Assembly (NCBI RefSeq): GCF_000661915.1
Contig: NZ_CP007509.1
Coordinates: forward strand, 3,117,501 to 3,181,500
Direction: 5' to 3'
Length of the DNA: 64,000 nt
Source of the DNA: Stutzerimonas decontaminans
GTDB lineage: Bacteria > Pseudomonadota > Gammaproteobacteria > Pseudomonadales > Pseudomonadaceae
The notes under the pieces were generated by a model. It was not told the origin of the DNA. It saw only the letters and a list, made by a program, of their open reading frames with translations, and did no database searches. The translations under genes and the position numbers were made by a program. This document shows, piece after piece, positions 7,810-33,499 of this stretch (positions are counted from its first letter, which is position 1; each line of letters starts with the position of its first letter).

Positions 7810-9441
7810 TCAGAAGTTAACGAAGAGTTTTTCGTCGACGGCATCCGTCGAGACGCCGCTCTGCGTCGCACTACGAGCACTTGTCGGCCGCGCGCTACGC
7901 GCATTGCCCGATACCCGCTCGGCACGCTGCTGCTCAGTCTTGAAGAACTGCATGACGCTCTGCAGTTGCAGCGCCTGGCTGCTCATTTCATCGGCAGTAG
8001 CGGAAAGCTCTTCGGAGGCCGAGGCGTTGGCCTGGGTCGTCTTGGAAAGCTCGACGATGGCGCCGTTGATCTGATCAATACCCGAGCGCTGTTCCTGCGA
8101 CGCGGCCGCGATTTCCTTGACCAGATCAGCTGTCTTGCCGATGGACGGCAGCATCTCTTCCAGCAGCGTGCCGGCGCGCTCGGACATCTTCACGCTGGAA
8201 CCGGCCAGTGCACCGATTTCCTGCGCCGCCACCTGGGACCGTTCGGCCAGCTTGCGCACCTCGGCTGCCACTACCGCAAAGCCCTTGCCATGATCACCGG
8301 CACGTGCCGCCTCGATGGCCGCGTTCAGCGCCAACAGGTTGGTCTGATAAGCGATGTCATCGATGATGCTGATCTTGTCGGCAATGGACTTCATGGCGTC
8401 GACGGTTTCGCGTACCGCCTCGCCGCCCTCCTTGGCCGAACTTGCGGATTGGGTAGCCATGCTGTCGGTGAGGCCAGCGTTTTCCGCATTCTGCGTGACG
8501 GTCGCTGCGGTCTCCTCGATGGAGGCACTGATCTCCTCCACGCTGGATGCCTGCTCGGTAGCGTTCTGGCTGAGCGTGCCGGACGAGGCGGAAACCTGCT
8601 CGGAAGCCGAAGCCAGCGAGTTGGCCGAAGCGGTGACCTGGCCGATGACATCGGTCAGCCGGGCGACCATGCTATTCATCGCGGCGAGCAGGCTGTCCTC
8701 GTCGCCCTTGCGCAGGTTGACCTTCACCGTCAGGTCGCCCTGGGCGATACGTTGCACGACATCACGGGCGTAATCCGGCTCTCCGCCGAGCTGGCGCACG
8801 ACCACACGAGTCAGGAACATGCCGAACAGAATGGCGGCCAGCACGGCCAGGGCGATGACGATGCCCATCACGACCTTCATCGAGGCGACGGTGTTGGTAG
8901 CCGCCTGATCCGCTGCCGCGCCCTGCTTCAGCATCTCGCCTACCAGCGCTTCGAAGTTGCTTTCAATTTCGTGGGAGATCGGCCGCAGCGGACCATTGAT
9001 GATAGCCATGCCTTCAGCGGCCCGATCCTCTCGCGCCAGCGCCAGTGCGTTCTGCACTCCGGCAATGTAGGCATCCAGGCCCTGCTGGATATTGTCAGCG
9101 ATCTTGATCTCCACATCGCTCATCACCGTCTTGCGGTACTCGTCGAACGCGTCTTGCGACACCTGACGGTACTCGATGGCGCGCTTGACGGTTTCCTCAC
9201 GCGCGGCACCTTCCTGGGTCAGCAACCGCAGCGCGGTACGGGTGTAGATCAGATACTGGGTGTAAGCGTTCTGCGCTTTGGCAGTTGCAACCAGGTTGTT
9301 CTGATACAACCCGTTCAGCGCGTTGCCGACTGAGATGATGTTACTCAGGCCATACAGGCCCATTCCCGCGGCGATCAGTGCGAGCGTGAAGAATGCGCTG
9401 AGCAACTTCTTAGCCAGACTAAGTTTCATGAACCAATTCAT
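7810..9441 (-). CDS. methyl-accepting chemotaxis protein with 4HB sensor domain
   Basis: 543 residues. A membrane helix ([20 protein letters not shown]), a periplasmic helical region of about 150 residues typical of four-helix-bundle (4HB_MCP/TarH) sensors, a second helix ([20 protein letters not shown]), a HAMP domain ([27 protein letters not shown] segment common in pseudomonad MCPs) and a cytoplasmic signalling domain with the hairpin tip [20 protein letters not shown]. The C-terminus ([11 protein letters not shown]) has no NWETF-type CheR/CheB docking pentapeptide. It lies between cheA and cheW and is presumably the dedicated receptor for this cluster. The ligand is unknown. Confidence 0.93.
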
Positions 9442-9491
9442 CGTTGAAGCCTCAAGCTTGAAATCGAAGAGAAGTTGTCGACGGTTACCCG

Positions 9492-11441
9492 TCAGTTGGC
9501 ACTGCTGACCAGCGCCGGTATGTCGAGAAGAAGGGCAACGCTGCCGTCGCCAAGAATTGTTGAACCACTGAAGCCGCGCATGCCGCTAAGGAGATCGCCG
9601 AGTGGTTTGATGACCGCCTGGATTTCGCCAACGAAACGGTCCACCACGATGCCAGCGCGCTGATCACCGCACTGCACGACCACCAGACACTCACGGGCGC
9701 TTTGCTCGCGCGGTATACCGAAACGCTCGGCCAGGCGGAGGTAAGGCAACGGCTGGCCACGCAGGCTGAACACGTCGTTGCCTCGCTGTTCGCTAAACTC
9801 CAGGCACTCGACCACTAGGTCCAGCGGCAGTACGAAATCGGCGTCACCCACCGCGACCTGAAAGCCGTCGATGATGGCGAGCGTCAGCGGCAGGTGGATG
9901 CGAAAGGTCGAACCCTTGCCGCGGGCGCTCTGGATATCCACGGTGCCGCGCAGCTGCTCGATGTTCTGGCGCACCACATCCATGCCCACACCGCGGCCAG
10001 AAAGGTCGGTGACCTTGTCTGCAGTGGAGAACCCCGGCGCGAAGATAAGGTTGAAGACGTCGCGCTCGGCTAGCTGCGCCGTGGGCTCCACCAGCCCGCG
10101 CTCGATCGCTTTGCGCAGAATACGGTCGGTATCCAGGCCGCGGCCGTCGTCGCTGATCTCGATGACCACCGATCCCGACTGGTGATAGGCGTTGAGCGAA
10201 AGGGTGCCCTGCTCCGGCTTGCCGGCGGCCAGGCGCTCCTCGATCGACTCGATGCCGTGGTCCATCGCGTTGCGCACGACGTGCAACAGGGGGTCGGTGA
10301 GCTTTTCGACCATGGATTTATCCAGCTCGGTATCGGCACCGCTGACCTTCAGCTCGATACGCTTACCAAGTTCCCTGCAGACGTCCCGCACAACCCGCGG
10401 AAAGCGTTGGAACACATCGCCAATAGGCACCATACGCAAGTTCAGCGCGCGGTCGCGGATCTGTTCCACCAGATGCCCTACATCCTCAAGCAACTCGCCC
10501 AGGTCGGCGTCCTGACGGATCGCTGGGTGGCTGTTGCAGGCGGAATTGCGAATGACCAGCTCGCCAACAGCGTTGATCAGCTCATCGAGCTTGCGTGCGT
10601 CGACCTTGATGAAAACTTGCTCAGAGGCGCGAGAACGGTTGACTTCGGCTGCATCCAGGAGGCTGCTGCGTTGCGAGACGTCGACGATTGCCAGGTGATC
10701 TTCTTCGATCAGCGTGCTGTCAAGCTCGTCCAAGACCTCAATCTGGATGTCGCAATCCTGCTCGATGAACTCCAGCGCCTGCTCGATAGCGCTGCGCTCG
10801 ACATCAGCCATCAACTCGAGGACGAAGCCTAGATGACAGCTTTCTGAATTCAGCTCGGTGAGGGGCGGCAAATCGTCCTGCAGAACCTCCAGCGCAAGCA
10901 CCTCGCCCATGTCGGCCAGATACTGAACGAATGGGATCGGGTCCAGGCCATGTGCGAACACCTGCGCTTGCGGGCGCAGGGTGATGCGCCAATGCGTACC
11001 CCCGCTAATTCCGGCGGCAGGGATCGCCTCCGGAGCGACGTACAGAGCAACACCTTCGAGAAAGGAACCTAGCTCAGCGCAAAGACGGGCGCGCGTGACC
11101 GGGTCAGGATCTTCATCCTCACGGCCTTCGGCGACGTTGTCGAACAACCGGCTCAGGTAATCACCACAGTTGAGCAGCAGTGAAACCAGCGACGCATCGA
11201 TCGGCTGCTCGCCGGTGCGCACCTGAACCAGCAGATTTTCCATCAGGTGAGTGAAGTCCACCACCAGCTGGAGATTGAACATGCCCGAGGAACCCTTGAG
11301 CGTATGAGCTGCGCGAAAGATGGCGTTGATGCGCTCGCTGTCGGCACCCTGGCTTTCAATTGCCAGCAGCGCCTGCTCCATTTCGGCCAGCAGCTCGCGA
11401 GCCTCATCAAGCAGCACGCTACGAACGGCTTGCATATCCAT
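9492..11441 (-). CDS. cheA: CheA chemotaxis histidine kinase
   Basis: 649 residues. P1 Hpt domain with phosphorylated His46 ([14 protein letters not shown]); a middle region (about 155-265: [19 protein letters not shown] to [16 protein letters not shown]) of the P2-like type found in this class of CheA; P3 dimerisation ([19 protein letters not shown]); P4 kinase with N box [13 protein letters not shown]1 [10 protein letters not shown] and G2 GRGVGMDVV; and P5 CheW-like domain ([21 protein letters not shown]). An AGGA-type ribosome-binding site (GAGGAAG) precedes the ATG. The kinase phosphorylates the CheY encoded 300 bases upstream and the CheB downstream. Gap to the STAS gene is nine bases. 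Confidence 0.95.
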
Positions 11442-28725: not shown

Positions 28726-30264
28726 ATGCTTTTCAATTCAGTGGAATTCATCGCCGGCTTTCTTCCGGTGGTGTTGATCGGATTCTTCGTGCTGACCGGA
28801 TCGGGCCGACAGCGGCTCGCGGTGATCTGGCTGACCGTCGTCTCGTTGGTGTTCTACGGCTGGTGGAACCCCGTTTATGTACCGCTGCTGGTCGGCAGCA
28901 TGCTGGTCAACTATCTGCTCGGTGGCTACCTGCGCCGACACCCCTCACGCCTGGCCCTTGGGCTGGCAGTCGCAGCCAACGTGTTGCTGCTGGTCTACTA
29001 CAAGTACACCGGTTTCCTGCTCGGCACCCTCGACGCTGCGCTGGATCTCGGCTGCCGGGTGGAAGACATCATCCTGCCGCTGGCGATCTCCTTCTTCACC
29101 TTCCAGCAGATCGCCTATCTGGTCGATGCCCATGATGGCGTGGTGGAAGAACACGATTTCGCCAACTACTGCCTGTTCATCAGCTTCTTTCCGCAGCTGA
29201 TCGCCGGGCCGATCACTCACCATGGCGAGATGCTCGCCCAGTTCAACAACCGCAAGACCTTCCGCGCACGCGTCGACAACCTGTCGCTGGGCGCCACGGT
29301 GTTCCTGCTCGGGCTGTTTAAAAAGGTGGTGATCGCCGACACCCTGGCGCTGAAGGCCACACCGGTGTTCAGCCTGGCGGCAGAGGGCAAGATTCCGGCG
29401 TTCTACGATGCCTGGACCGGCGCGCTGACCTACACGCTGCAGATCTACTTCGACTTCTCCGGCTACAGCGACATGGCCATCGGCCTGGCGCTGCTGTTCG
29501 GCATCAGCCTGCCGGCCAACTTCAACAGCCCGTTCAAGGCGCGCAACGTCATCGACTACTGGTCGCGCTGGCACATGACGCTGACGCGCTTTCTCACCGC
29601 CTACATCTACAACCCCATCGTGCTGCGCGTGACCCGTGCCCGTATGGCTGCCGGCAAGCCGCAGCCGCGACGCGGCAAGATGACCGTCGGTACTTTCTTT
29701 GCCCTCGTCGCCTACCCGACAGTATTCACCATGTTCATCTCCGGCATCTGGCACGGTGCCGGCTGGCAATTCGTGGTGTTCGGCCTGCTGCATGGCTTCT
29801 ACCTAGTGGTGGCCCACGGCTGGCGCGCCTGGAAGGTCCGCCAGGGTTGGAAGCTGGACAGTGAGGTCTGGTGGCACAAGGTACTGGCCGTACTGCTGAC
29901 CTTTCAGTGCGTGGTGGTGGCGATGGTGTTCTTCCGCGCCGCCGACGTGCCGGCCGCGCTGGCGGTCCTCCAAGGCATGCTCGGTTTGAGCCCGGACAGT
30001 GTGCACATGGACCGCTCGGACTTCGCCTATATCGCCGCGCTGCTGGCGTTCGTCTGGGGCATGCCGAACGTGCAGCAATGGATGGGCCACTTCCGCACCG
30101 CATTGAACTTCCAGCCCCACCAACACTGGACCGAACGGCTGCTGCCGATCAGCGCCTGGCGGCCGACGGCGATCCACGGCATGGCGATTGGCGTGCTCGG
30201 TTTCTTCGCCTTGGCGATCGCCTTTTCCATGGCGCCGACCGAATTTCTCTACTTCCAGTTCTGA
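28726..30264 (+). CDS. MBOAT-family O-acyltransferase (AlgI-like)
   Basis: 512 residues, polytopic, with membrane-bound O-acyltransferase hallmarks: MLFNSVEFIAGFLPVVLIGF at the N-terminus, LPLAISFFTFQQIAYLVD, IAGPITHHGEM, YFDFSGYSDMAIGLALLFG, NFNSPFKARNVIDYWSRWHM (in part) and the WHG motif FISGIWHGAGW with His343, plus His356 (LLHG). Relatives such as AlgI, DltB and PatA-type proteins move acyl groups across the inner membrane to extracytoplasmic acceptors. It opens a four-gene run with an FkbH-type enzyme, an acyl carrier protein and an SGNH-like protein, so the donor is probably a thioester on that carrier protein, as in DltB systems. Confidence 0.92.
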   Translation: MLFNSVEFIAGFLPVVLIGFFVLTGSGRQRLAVIWLTVVSLVFYGWWNPVYVPLLVGSMLVNYLLGGYLRRHPSRLALGLAVAANVLLLVYYKYTGFLLGTLDAALDLGCRVEDIILPLAISFFTFQQIAYLVDAHDGVVEEHDFANYCLFISFFPQLIAGPITHHGEMLAQFNNRKTFRARVDNLSLGATVFLLGLFKKVVIADTLALKATPVFSLAAEGKIPAFYDAWTGALTYTLQIYFDFSGYSDMAIGLALLFGISLPANFNSPFKARNVIDYWSRWHMTLTRFLTAYIYNPIVLRVTRARMAAGKPQPRRGKMTVGTFFALVAYPTVFTMFISGIWHGAGWQFVVFGLLHGFYLVVAHGWRAWKVRQGWKLDSEVWWHKVLAVLLTFQCVVVAMVFFRAADVPAALAVLQGMLGLSPDSVHMDRSDFAYIAALLAFVWGMPNVQQWMGHFRTALNFQPHQHWTERLLPISAWRPTAIHGMAIGVLGFFALAIAFSMAPTEFLYFQF

Positions 30265-30284
30265 CCACGACAAGGAGTCCCGGC

Positions 30285-32186
30285 ATGCAACAACTTCACT
30301 GGCTGCCGGCGCACGCGGATCTATCCGCCGCGATCGGCCAAGCCAAGCGTATCGACGATCCGTTGCAACGGCTGCACGAAGCCGCCCGGCTGGCGACCTT
30401 TCAACGGGATTTCACCCTTACCGCACGGCTGGACAAGCTGGCCGCCACCGGAATCGAACAGGATGCTGCGGCGGCACGACTGACGCCGCTGCGGGTGGCG
30501 TTGCTGTCCTCGCATACGGTCGATCACCTGCTGCCGGCCATCCGCGTGGCCGGATTGCAACGGCGGCTGGCGCTGTCGCTGCACGTCGCGCCTTACGGCA
30601 TGTACCGCCAAGCGCTGCTGGCCGACGATCCCGAACTGAACGCCTTCGCCCCGCAACTGGTGCTGCTGGCGCTGGACGCCCATGACGCACCGCTGCAACT
30701 GCCCTTGCAGGCAGGCCAGGCGGAGGTGGATGCCGCCGTGGCGGAACGCGTCGAAGAACTGCGCCTGCTCTGGCGTCGGGCCCGCGAGCGATATGCCGCG
30801 CAGGTGGTGCAGCAGACGCTGGTGCCGGTCAGCCCGCACCTGTTCGGCTCTTACGAAGCACTGGTGCCGGCTTCGCCGCGGGCAGTCATCGAACGCTTGA
30901 ATGCGGCCATCCGCGCTGCCGCCCGCGAGGATGGCGTACTGCTGCTGGACCTGGCCTGGCACGCAGCCGCTTATGGCGGCGGCTTGGGCGAGCCGGTGCG
31001 CTGGCACCAGGCCAAGCAGCTGGTCAGCCCGAACCTGGCACCGCTTTATGGCGAGCATCTGGCACGCATCGCAGCCGCCACCGCCGGCTTGTCGCGCAAA
31101 TGCCTGGTACTCGATCTGGACAACACCCTCTGGGGCGGCGTGATCGGCGATGACGGCATCGACGGCATCCACCTCGGCCAGGGCAACCCCAGCGGCGAGG
31201 CGTTTCTCGCCTTCCAGCGTTATGCCGCGCAACTGGCGCGCCGCGGGGTGATTCTGGCGGTGTGCAGCAAGAATGACCTGCACGTTGCCGAAGCCGCATT
31301 CGCGCACCCGGAGATGGCGCTCAAGCGCAGCGATATCGCGGCCTTCGTCGCCAACTGGGAAGACAAGGCCGGCAACCTGCGGCGTATCGCGAGCATGCTC
31401 GATATCGGCCTAGATAGCCTGGTATTCGTCGACGACAACCCCGCCGAGCGCGACATCGTGCGCCGCGAGCTGCCGGAAGTCGCCGTACCGGAGCTGCCCG
31501 ACGATGTCGCCGACTACCCTGCACGCATCGCCGCGGCGGGCTATTTCGAAGCCGTGTCCTTTACCTCCGATGACGCCGAGCGTGGTCGCAGCTATGCGCT
31601 GAATGCCGAACGCAAGGCCGCGCTGAACCAGGCCACGGACATGGAAGGCTACCTGCGCGGTTTGCAGATGGTCCTGCGCGTCAGCCGCATCGGTGCGGCC
31701 GAGCTGGCCCGCGCCACTCAGCTGATCAACAAGACCAACCAGTTCAACCTCACCACCCGCCGCTACACCGAAGCCGAAGTCGAGCGCATGGCCAGCGATC
31801 CGCGAACCATCGCGCTGGCGCTGCGGCTGGAAGACAAGTTCGGCGACAACGGCCTGATCAGCGTGGTACTGGTCCGTCCCGATGACGCACTGCAAGCCGA
31901 TGAGCTGCTGATCGACAGCTGGCTGATGAGCTGCCGCGTGCTGGGCCGCCAGGTCGAGTCGGCGGTGCTGGAAGTGCTGGCCGATTCGGCAGCGGCTGCC
32001 GGCTGGGGCGCACTGGTCGGCGAATACCGCCCCACCGAACGTAACGGCATGGTTGCCGAGCACTACCCGCGGCTGGGCTTCGAGCAGTGCCCTGCCCCTG
32101 CCGGGGCCTGCCCCGATGCGAGTTTCTGGCGCTACGAGCTGGCCTCGCGCGCTCCCATCCACCACCACATCCAGGTGCAAGCATGA
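30285..32186 (+). CDS. FkbH-type HAD-IIIC protein
   Basis: 633 residues. An N-terminal FkbH-associated domain (RVALLSSHTVDHLLPAIRVAG, LFGSYEALVPASPRAVIERL) precedes a HAD-IIIC core with catalytic Asp277 and Asp279 in LVLDLDNTLWGGVIGDDG, motif II AVCSKND and motif III LVFVDDNPAERDIVR, then a GNAT-like C-terminal domain (NKTNQFNLTTRRYTEAEVE, DKFGDNGLISVV, WLMSCRVLGRQVE). FkbH-type enzymes take 1,3-bisphosphoglycerate, remove phosphate and load the glyceryl unit onto a carrier protein (known from polyketide extender-unit pathways). The ATG at 30285 has AAGGAG upstream and lies 20 bp after the MBOAT stop; the open frame reaches further upstream only by overlapping MBOAT. Confidence 0.92.
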   Translation: MQQLHWLPAHADLSAAIGQAKRIDDPLQRLHEAARLATFQRDFTLTARLDKLAATGIEQDAAAARLTPLRVALLSSHTVDHLLPAIRVAGLQRRLALSLHVAPYGMYRQALLADDPELNAFAPQLVLLALDAHDAPLQLPLQAGQAEVDAAVAERVEELRLLWRRARERYAAQVVQQTLVPVSPHLFGSYEALVPASPRAVIERLNAAIRAAAREDGVLLLDLAWHAAAYGGGLGEPVRWHQAKQLVSPNLAPLYGEHLARIAAATAGLSRKCLVLDLDNTLWGGVIGDDGIDGIHLGQGNPSGEAFLAFQRYAAQLARRGVILAVCSKNDLHVAEAAFAHPEMALKRSDIAAFVANWEDKAGNLRRIASMLDIGLDSLVFVDDNPAERDIVRRELPEVAVPELPDDVADYPARIAAAGYFEAVSFTSDDAERGRSYALNAERKAALNQATDMEGYLRGLQMVLRVSRIGAAELARATQLINKTNQFNLTTRRYTEAEVERMASDPRTIALALRLEDKFGDNGLISVVLVRPDDALQADELLIDSWLMSCRVLGRQVESAVLEVLADSAAAAGWGALVGEYRPTERNGMVAEHYPRLGFEQCPAPAGACPDASFWRYELASRAPIHHHIQVQA

Positions 32187-32431
32187 ACGAAAAGGAAATT
32201 CTCCAGGCGCTGACCCAGGTCTTCCACGACGTGTTCGACGATGACGACATCGTCCTCACGCCCGAAACCACCGCCGACGACATCGATGGCTGGGACAGCC
32301 AGACCCATGTATTGCTCATCGTCGCCGCCGAGCAACGCTTCGGCATCAAGTTCCGCACCGCCGAATTGGAGTCGCTGAAGAACGTGGGCCATTTCGCCCA
32401 GCTGATCCAGACCAAACTCGGAGGTCGCTAA
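32183..32431 (+). CDS. acyl carrier protein
   Basis: 82 residues, acidic, with the phosphopantetheine attachment motif DIDGWDSQTHVLLIVAAEQ, Ser39 being the predicted attachment site (DS motif followed by Q rather than the usual L), and the helix III region FRTAELESLKNVGHFAQLI. The start overlaps the FkbH stop as ATGA, indicating tight coupling. It is the predicted recipient of the acyl unit made by the FkbH-type protein and donor to the MBOAT protein. It is distinct from a fatty-acid-synthesis ACP by context. Confidence 0.93.
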   Translation: MNEKEILQALTQVFHDVFDDDDIVLTPETTADDIDGWDSQTHVLLIVAAEQRFGIKFRTAELESLKNVGHFAQLIQTKLGGR

Positions 32432-32434
32432 GTC

Positions 32435-33499
32435 ATGAACGGATCCGTCGACACATGCCCGGCCAGCGCTGCCGGTCGGGCCGAGGCATACCAGCGGCGG
32501 GTGCGTGGCGGCTACTTGCTGGGCATGTTCGCCGGGCTGTTCGGGATGCTCGGCGGCTTTGCCGCCCTGCTCGCCTGGCTCAACCACACCGACAACCTGC
32601 CGCCACCGGCTTTCTCCAACAGCCTGTGCGTGGATGAAAAGCTGCACTTTCTGCGGCACAACCCGATCAACCAGCCAAATCTACTGGTCATCGGCTCTTC
32701 GGTCGCCTGGCGCCACGTCGATGGTGATGTGCTGATTGAACAGGCGCCGGGTGTGCGGCCGCTCAACGGTGCGTTCTGCGGCCTGCACGCAAATCAGTCG
32801 ACCTACGTCGCCAACTGGCTACTGGACCGCGAACCGACCGTACGCCAGGTGGTGATGATCGTCGATCCGCTGGATTTTGCCGGCTGCTGGAAAGTGCCGG
32901 ATGACGTGTTCAACCGCGAGCACGCGGACCAGTACGTCTATCAGCGGACCTCGCGCTGGGGCTACTACATGCGCTACTTCTCGCCGCGCTCGCTGCTGCG
33001 CAATGCCAAGACGGTCAAGGCGCAGCGGGCCAACGAGATCGAATGGGACCCGTTGGTGTTCACTCGTCACGGCGACGGGCCGCTGGAACCGCATGGCGAC
33101 CGCGGCCTGTTCTACGACAAGCCGGACCCGCTGGACGGCAGCTGCTTCGCCGCGCTCGGCAAGCTGTCGAAACGGCTGCAACAGGAGCAGCGCCAACTGC
33201 TGGTGGTCTCCACCCCGCTGCATCCACAGTGGAAGGCCAAGGTCGATGCCGACGGCAGCTTTCTTGCCCGTTTCGACGCCAAGCTAAGCGCCGCAATCGC
33301 CGGGAATGCCGGGGCGCACTATTGGAATGCCGATCGGGAATGGGTGGCTCCACGTGACGCCTTTGTCGATGCCATCCACCTGCGCTGGTCGGTGGTGCAC
33401 GGCTTTTCCGAGGCCTTGGCCGAGCAGCTGCGCGAAACGGAGCATGCGCGGCTTGGCGAATCGGTGCTGGCAGGTAGCAGAGGGTTCGGCGCCCCTTGA
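32435..33499 (+). CDS. membrane-anchored SGNH-like protein
   Basis: 354 residues. One N-terminal membrane anchor (YLLGMFAGLFGMLGGFAALLAWL) and a periplasmic domain. Two SGNH/GDSL landmarks are visible: LLVIGSSVAWRHVDGD near residue 88 (nucleophile block) and VDAIHL with Asp312 and His315 (catalytic DxxH block). This places it with AlgJ/AlgX/DltD-type proteins that accept or transfer acyl groups downstream of an MBOAT protein; I infer this role rather than seeing close similarity. It starts three bases after the acp stop and is the last gene of the cassette. Confidence 0.75.
   Translation: MNGSVDTCPASAAGRAEAYQRRVRGGYLLGMFAGLFGMLGGFAALLAWLNHTDNLPPPAFSNSLCVDEKLHFLRHNPINQPNLLVIGSSVAWRHVDGDVLIEQAPGVRPLNGAFCGLHANQSTYVANWLLDREPTVRQVVMIVDPLDFAGCWKVPDDVFNREHADQYVYQRTSRWGYYMRYFSPRSLLRNAKTVKAQRANEIEWDPLVFTRHGDGPLEPHGDRGLFYDKPDPLDGSCFAALGKLSKRLQQEQRQLLVVSTPLHPQWKAKVDADGSFLARFDAKLSAAIAGNAGAHYWNADREWVAPRDAFVDAIHLRWSVVHGFSEALAEQLRETEHARLGESVLAGSRGFGAP

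Follow-up and report, generated by a model that had tools for sequence, protein, structure and literature searches.

What do four adjacent genes encoding an MBOAT acyltransferase, an FkbH-type protein, a stand-alone acyl carrier protein (ACP) and a membrane-anchored SGNH-fold protein accomplish together in Stutzerimonas decontaminans? The genes lie on the same strand and in this order at positions 28726-33499 of the 64,000-nucleotide stretch of contig NZ_CP007509.1 analysed here (hereafter the window), with junctions of 20, -4 and 3 bp. A sequence-only reading of this DNA had described the same four adjacent genes and junctions, for which coordinates, lengths and gaps all turned out exact, and had proposed a stand-alone pathway for carrier-loaded acyl decoration. 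That proposal is supported by the co-conservation of the set, by an FXYXXF motif ending the MBOAT in every four-gene locus, by DltB being the nearest relative of the MBOAT, by the SGNH fold of the fourth protein and, in several genera, by nucleotide-sugar or glycan genes that adjoin the cassette. We consider it probable that the cassette constitutes a carrier-fed MBOAT-SGNH acyltransferase adding a glyceryl (D-glyceric acid) ester to an extracytoplasmic glycan.

Components of the cassette and a proposed route

The MBOAT acyltransferase (512 aa; 28726-30264, plus strand) matches PF03062 with 75.7 bits against a cut-off of 27, and its residues H283 and H343 (WHG) are conserved; WHG and RWHM(T/S)L are each present in 58/58 MBOATs of the four-gene loci collected below. 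Its nearest solved relative by sequence is DltB 6bug (phmmer, 7.2e-32), DltB comes first in a Foldseek search with its AlphaFold model (E 3e-11, template-modelling (TM) score 0.71 on the target), and its 195 bits against the DltB model TIGR04091 stay under the cut-off of 375. Residues 115-404 align to DltB, with about 100 aa extra beyond the aligned part. The protein ends in APTEFLYFQF, the final six residues of which (F507-F512; 30244-30261, plus strand, from the translation) fit FXYXXF, and we propose this hexapeptide, of low confidence in the AlphaFold model, as an acyl-shuttle motif with Tyr509 as the acceptor. FXYXXF is found at the MBOAT C-terminus in 58/58 four-gene loci. Excerpts of PMC12148441 describe it as the site of an acyl-tyrosine intermediate: in Dlt systems it sits on DltX, whereas PatA and other MBOATs carry it at their own C-terminus. 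The same paper reports an acyl-tyrosine in OatA whose SGNH domain had been inactivated. The 20-bp gap between the MBOAT and FkbH genes leaves no room there for a separate DltX, the motif being carried by the MBOAT itself.

The FkbH-type protein (633 aa; 30285-32186, plus strand) scores 294.8 bits against TIGR01686 (cut-off 146.65) and comprises an FkbH_N/GDSL-like N-terminal domain, a HAD-IIIC domain (D277, D279) and a C-terminal part with SCRVLGR (C550). PF21211 and PF13472 lie barely above their cut-offs, TIGR01681 reaches 57.8 bits, and BF1531 (3slr, 5.4e-60) is a solved relative. Among the four-gene loci, DxDxTxWGG occurs in 57/58, CSKN in 56/58 and an SCRVLGR-type motif in 58/58, the exceptions to the first two being the two Ensifer loci. 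The ACP (82 aa; 32183-32431, plus strand) matches PF00550 with 22.7 bits against a cut-off of 20.8, and the DltC model with just 13 bits against 68. Its phosphopantetheine site, Ser39 (codon 32297-32299), sits in GWDSQTH, and a W-D/N-S motif recurs in 58/58 loci. The two HAD aspartates and the carrier serine named by the sequence-only reading were both found in the translations.

The last gene (32435-33499, plus strand) encodes a 354-aa protein with a single predicted membrane helix (residues 25-51) followed by the catalytic domain. Pfam and NCBIfam searches returned no match above cut-off; many of its relatives bear a precomputed PF27429.1, which the Pfam search of the window protein did not return, and a sequence search of solved structures with the SGNH profile gave chance matches only. 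Its AlphaFold model (mean predicted local distance difference test (pLDDT) 75.1) adopts an SGNH fold according to Foldseek and VIA-align, with DltD, PatB and OatA among the structural matches, which bears out the earlier assignment of a membrane-anchored SGNH protein from its GSS (87-89) and DAIH (D312/H315) motifs. We propose Ser89, D312 and H315 as catalytic residues, Ser89 being the third letter of GSS, which we take to be the catalytic serine by alignment with the GDS motif. The protein is predicted to be a separate membrane-anchored partner with Ser-Asp-His, as in PatAB/AlgIJ-type systems.

DltB-type transfer from a carrier and PatA-type tyrosine shuttling would join these parts into a continuous route. 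In the cytoplasm, FkbH would take the C3 unit from 1,3-bisphosphoglycerate, its HAD domain removing the phosphate, and would load glyceryl on the phosphopantetheine of the ACP. The MBOAT, with His343 as catalyst, would then move glyceryl via a membrane funnel to its own Tyr509 on the periplasmic side, from which the SGNH protein would take it to Ser89 and finally to a hydroxyl of a periplasmic surface polysaccharide. We infer every transfer step by analogy with the Dlt and Pat precedents, and the glyceryl group from the FkbH precedent together with the lack of any oxidising or methylating partner gene within the four-gene cassette; a glycan would be the acceptor.

Conservation of the four-gene set

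The sequence-only reading had named joint conservation in relatives as a check on its proposal. GTDB contigs were scanned with the SGNH alignment alone, and the best 80 of 85 relatives correspond to 78 loci: all four genes are present in 58, the place of FkbH is masked in 12, three are cut by a contig end and five carry SGNH alone. The 58 include L123, whose SGNH gene is cut by a contig end, and L148, with split frames. Gene order is that of the window in 56/58, the other two, both from Ensifer, reading SGNH-MBOAT-ACP-FkbH. The loci range over Pseudomonadaceae, Polaromonas, Coralloluteibacterium, Roseomonas/Belnapia and kin, Acetobacter, Dongia, Paracoccus, Sphingomonas, Rhizorhapis and Ensifer, with all four genes together in alpha-, beta- and gammaproteobacterial loci. 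Since the set is conserved in 58 of the 78 loci while the flanks differ, it is not a chance neighbourhood. The idea that another loading enzyme stands between MBOAT and ACP in the 12 masked loci was rejected, the stretch being a run of N. No MBOAT, FkbH or ACP was detected within 8 kb of the SGNH-only loci (L133, L141, L142, L143 and L144, from Belnapia and Pseudoroseomonas).

The genome of the window holds one FkbH and one MBOAT detected genome-wide at E 0.001. FkbH was found at E 1e-30 in 41 of 145 relatives (own genome included), 38 of them members of the same taxonomic family and three more distant. Within the genus, FkbH was detected in 35/56 genomes, the remainder reflecting absence or masking, and an MBOAT match in 50/56 (merely 32% identical in G008, a fragment in G004); three genomes (G001, G022 and G037) have two full-length FkbH matches each. 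MBOAT, FkbH, ACP and SGNH are all present in L003-L030, a collection of 28 short loci, and in L035-L051, 17 longer loci from the family; the two collections overlap, as several places are represented in both. In L031 a contig end interrupts the locus. Gene clustering of 20 longer loci and the window, for which the ACP is too short, placed the three cassette families in 17 or 18 of the 21, the next commonest family occurring in 5/21. One longer locus (L050, 698-1069; G001:C14) also contains a cassette-type MBOAT fragment, 74% identical over 103 aa and with one stop, about 6 kb from an intact cassette, which suggests a trace of an earlier duplication or loss.

Several observations weigh against the proposed route. 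What the sequences show is the gene set, its co-conservation, the motifs, the predicted folds and, in some loci outside Pseudomonadaceae, nearby glycan genes; the chemistry is predicted. With the SGNH model, Foldseek places DltD 3bma first by E-value (1e-5), together with 7dxm and 6pfx, at TM scores of only 0.34-0.43, and none of the 50 VIA-align matches listed is a DltD chain. The apparent block II residue of the SGNH protein, located by eye on the basis of SGNH motifs, is a conserved Gly116, which is hydrolase-like. Excerpts of PMC12148441 link Ser or Asn instead of Gly in this block to transferases. FkbH is unreadable in the 12 N-masked loci, and the distant FkbH loci L032-L034, from other members of the order, are without MBOAT and without SGNH. 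MBOAT is likewise missing from 20 stretches, several of them short, that a class search yielded from 19 of 20 other matching genomes, and Niveispirillum has FkbH-ACP with a WcbI-annotated protein in place of MBOAT. Consequently, FkbH-ACP by itself is no predictor of MBOAT.

FkbH and ACP without MBOAT elsewhere would suit an arrangement in which the two serve a separate small-molecule pathway (glyceryl-ACP, a polyketide-type unit) and are mere neighbours of an acetyl-CoA-using MBOAT-SGNH acetyltransferase, and excerpts of PMC7489565 do place FkbH-ACP pairs in tetronate and methoxymalonate polyketide pathways. We regard this as very unlikely, for the four genes stay together across the three proteobacterial classes while their flanks vary, and the set has been reassembled in Ensifer with a different FkbH. 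Nor was any polyketide synthase (PKS) or nonribosomal peptide synthetase (NRPS) domain recognised in the 19 open reading frames (ORFs) of the window scanned with Pfam (nine at E 0.1, the cassette four included, and ten more at E 1e-10), in agreement with the sequence-only reading, which had seen no such gene nearby.

FkbH lineages, analogous sets and the acyl group

An FkbH tree was built from 39 proteins, 22 of which are chosen cassette rows and which include one of the two Ensifer loci. Cassette FkbHs other than that of Ensifer form a single group of 21 (support 100/100), and the Ensifer protein falls in a different group (99/98), although its SGNH (38% identical) and MBOAT (56%) belong to the cassette families. 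Judging from these sequences, the set appears to have come together on at least two occasions, each with its own FkbH lineage, but several long rows make exact placements in the tree unsure. Both Ensifer loci keep the complete set in a different order, and the FkbH of the one included in the tree belongs to a separate lineage; it therefore seems to be the set as a whole that is under selection. A human-gut phage record (MT835480.1, 71476-73146) also encodes a relative of FkbH, with 38% identity across 89% of the query.

Similar sets were found in Sinorhizobium meliloti, in Rhodobacteraceae SC52 and on a Tistrella plasmid, where the MBOAT ends in FLYQGF, FIYFNF and FIYAGF, respectively; the third protein of these sets is missed by the SGNH profile and shows SGNH-like motifs by eye. 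On S. meliloti pSymB, a VOC-MBOAT-SGNH-like-ACP-FkbH cluster lies about 5 kb from annotated capsular polysaccharide biosynthesis, ABC transporter and RkpR genes. This cluster shares the four functions of the cassette, with an FkbH 41% and an MBOAT 33% identical, but differs in gene order, in the capsule-export genes nearby and in its third protein, which is annotated as a TonB-dependent receptor and is SGNH-like by motif only. Excerpts of the rkp-3 paper (PMC3557214) contain nothing on the four-gene set.

S. meliloti, SC52 and Paroceanicella have VOC-annotated proteins in the vicinity of their FkbH-ACP sets (L178 7841-8308, L182 11909-12337 and L181 11724-12191), and one can conceive of an epimerase that works on the acyl group while it is bound to the carrier. 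Such neighbours, and the S-adenosylmethionine methyltransferase adjoining FkbH in Tistrella and Paroceanicella, bear on whether the same route and transferase might handle another C3 acid (e.g., phosphoglyceryl, lactyl or a further modified glyceryl), either through a different substrate of this FkbH subfamily, whose product is known by family only, or through a gene elsewhere that alters the loaded unit. We hold this to be unlikely: the cassette itself contains no such modifying gene, and both HAD aspartates are retained, which argues for dephosphorylation.

Neighbouring genes, acceptor and known systems

Glyceryl as the transferred group leaves the acceptor to be considered. Outside Pseudomonadaceae, 11 of the 26 four-gene loci (L119, L120, L123, L125, L128, L137, L145, L146, L150, L152 and L153) have nucleotide-sugar-type or glycan genes no more than 8 kb away, compared with 0/5 SGNH-only loci; this count is biased, the query proteins being taken from the same loci, the control being small (n=5) and near-copies (three Polaromonas, two Ensifer) being scored separately. 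Relatives of glucose-1-phosphate cytidylyltransferase are present in 8 of the 26, from five genera (Polaromonas, Roseomonas, Acetobacter, Dongia and Ensifer). The one tested, from Ensifer, is above the TIGR02623 cut-off and is accompanied by a CDP-glucose 4,6-dehydratase (above cut-off), an RfbH-like protein (below cut-off) and a C-methyltransferase.

Within Pseudomonadaceae the picture is less favourable to a glycan acceptor, as only four of the 32 four-gene loci (L104, L109, L113 and L116) have glycan-type genes at up to this distance and none was recognised adjoining the cassette among the scanned ORFs of the window. A surface glycan is our best guess, and for the window it is accordingly an extrapolation. 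Candidate markers of an acceptor pathway were rejected. The genome of the window has one weak match to glucose-1-phosphate cytidylyltransferase (26.6 bits against a cut-off of 300). A DRL-type oxidoreductase (PF21135) lies within 8 kb in 10/78 loci of several genera (L104, L109, L113, L116, L119, L120, L123, L125, L146 and L150) and, in the genome of the window, about 0.8 Mb from the cassette beside a gene read as flippase-like; it is not diagnostic since it occurs in 54/56 genus genomes with or without the cassette. Cellulose synthase (TIGR03030) is above cut-off in 12/56 genus genomes, that of the window not among them, and the exopolysaccharide transferase TIGR03025 in 53/56, which makes it non-discriminating.

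The cassette is followed 77 bp downstream, in the same orientation, by an LpxR-type gene (PF09982; 33577-34449). A frame change appears to have shortened this gene at its 3' end (290 aa versus 327 in two relatives), and this change may be genuine or a sequencing error. As LpxR is a lipid A 3'-O-deacylase, this neighbour and the lack of an adjoining recognised glycan gene in the window would fit an acceptor that is a lipid, lipid A/core or a protein and not a polysaccharide. In 14/78 loci an LpxR relative lies 8 kb or less from the SGNH gene of the cassette, but all 14 are titled Stutzerimonas or Pseudomonas, whereas glycan genes recur across unrelated genera, and a non-polysaccharide acceptor appears improbable to us. 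In Belnapia and kin (L124, L127, L131, L132 and L136, at about 9220-10500), the cassette is directly followed by a second ORF that on inspection resembles a carrier protein and by an amino acid--[acyl-carrier-protein] ligase relative. The one such relative tested, from L136, exceeds the NF005479 cut-off; in these loci the same transferase has another carrier-loading enzyme next to it.

Like the Dlt system of teichoic acid D-alanylation (DltA-DltB-DltC-DltD and DltX), the cassette combines an MBOAT, a stand-alone carrier protein and an SGNH protein. It has FkbH where Dlt has the adenylating DltA (no adenylation domain was found among the 19 scanned ORFs, the rest of the genome not having been searched for DltA), it carries the shuttle tyrosine on the MBOAT C-terminus and not on a separate DltX, and its host is Gram-negative. 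PatA/PatB, AlgI/AlgJ/AlgX and WssH/WssI likewise have, in excerpts of PMC12148441, an MBOAT with C-terminal FXYXXF and a separate SGNH partner; the same excerpts state that MBOAT/SGNH pathways outside Dlt lack a similar carrier protein. Unlike these acyl-CoA-dependent, carrier-free systems, the cassette co-encodes an ACP and its probable loading enzyme, which are co-conserved, the donor being deduced from the genes. With no DltA in the scanned ORFs and a carrier protein present, it belongs to neither type: it combines a Dlt-like carrier protein, FkbH in DltA's place and a PatA-like fused shuttle, and its mode of action appears to resemble that of both.

FkbH and a carrier protein are also shared with units of polyketide and NRPS pathways (tetronates, methoxymalonyl-ACP, suomilide), for which glyceryl loading from 1,3-bisphosphoglycerate has been proposed in excerpts of PMC7489565 and PMC13122637. 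Here, no PKS or NRPS was seen and the product would apparently go to a membrane acyltransferase. FkbH and MBOAT co-occur in the suomilide cluster, but the excerpts of PMC13122637 propose that this MBOAT acylates a hexose of the peptide. Among the literature matches listed, two papers contain both FkbH and MBOAT, each of them on cyanobacterial peptides, and none of the open PMC full-text matches listed presents FkbH-ACP-MBOAT-SGNH as a system for decorating the cell surface (subscription papers and preprints lay outside the scope). Each part is of a known kind, and for the combination no published description was found.

It is quite possible, though we hesitate to assert it, that glycerylation represents a general class of envelope modification in which the glycolytic intermediate 1,3-bisphosphoglycerate is the direct source of activated acyl groups for MBOAT-SGNH machines, via a dedicated FkbH and ACP. 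Such machines would have arisen repeatedly by combining FkbH and SGNH proteins of different lineages (Stutzerimonas, Ensifer and S. meliloti types) and would decorate capsules or O-antigens that contain unusual deoxy or branched sugars. If the proposed function of the cassette is correct, a Gram-negative carrier-fed route via FkbH would connect the esters of the cell surface with central glycolysis. Glyceryl esters of polysaccharides are known in gellan, and the cassette would provide a simple genetic handle on them, as well as a minimal four-protein set for reconstituting trans-membrane acyl transfer from an acyl-ACP donor.

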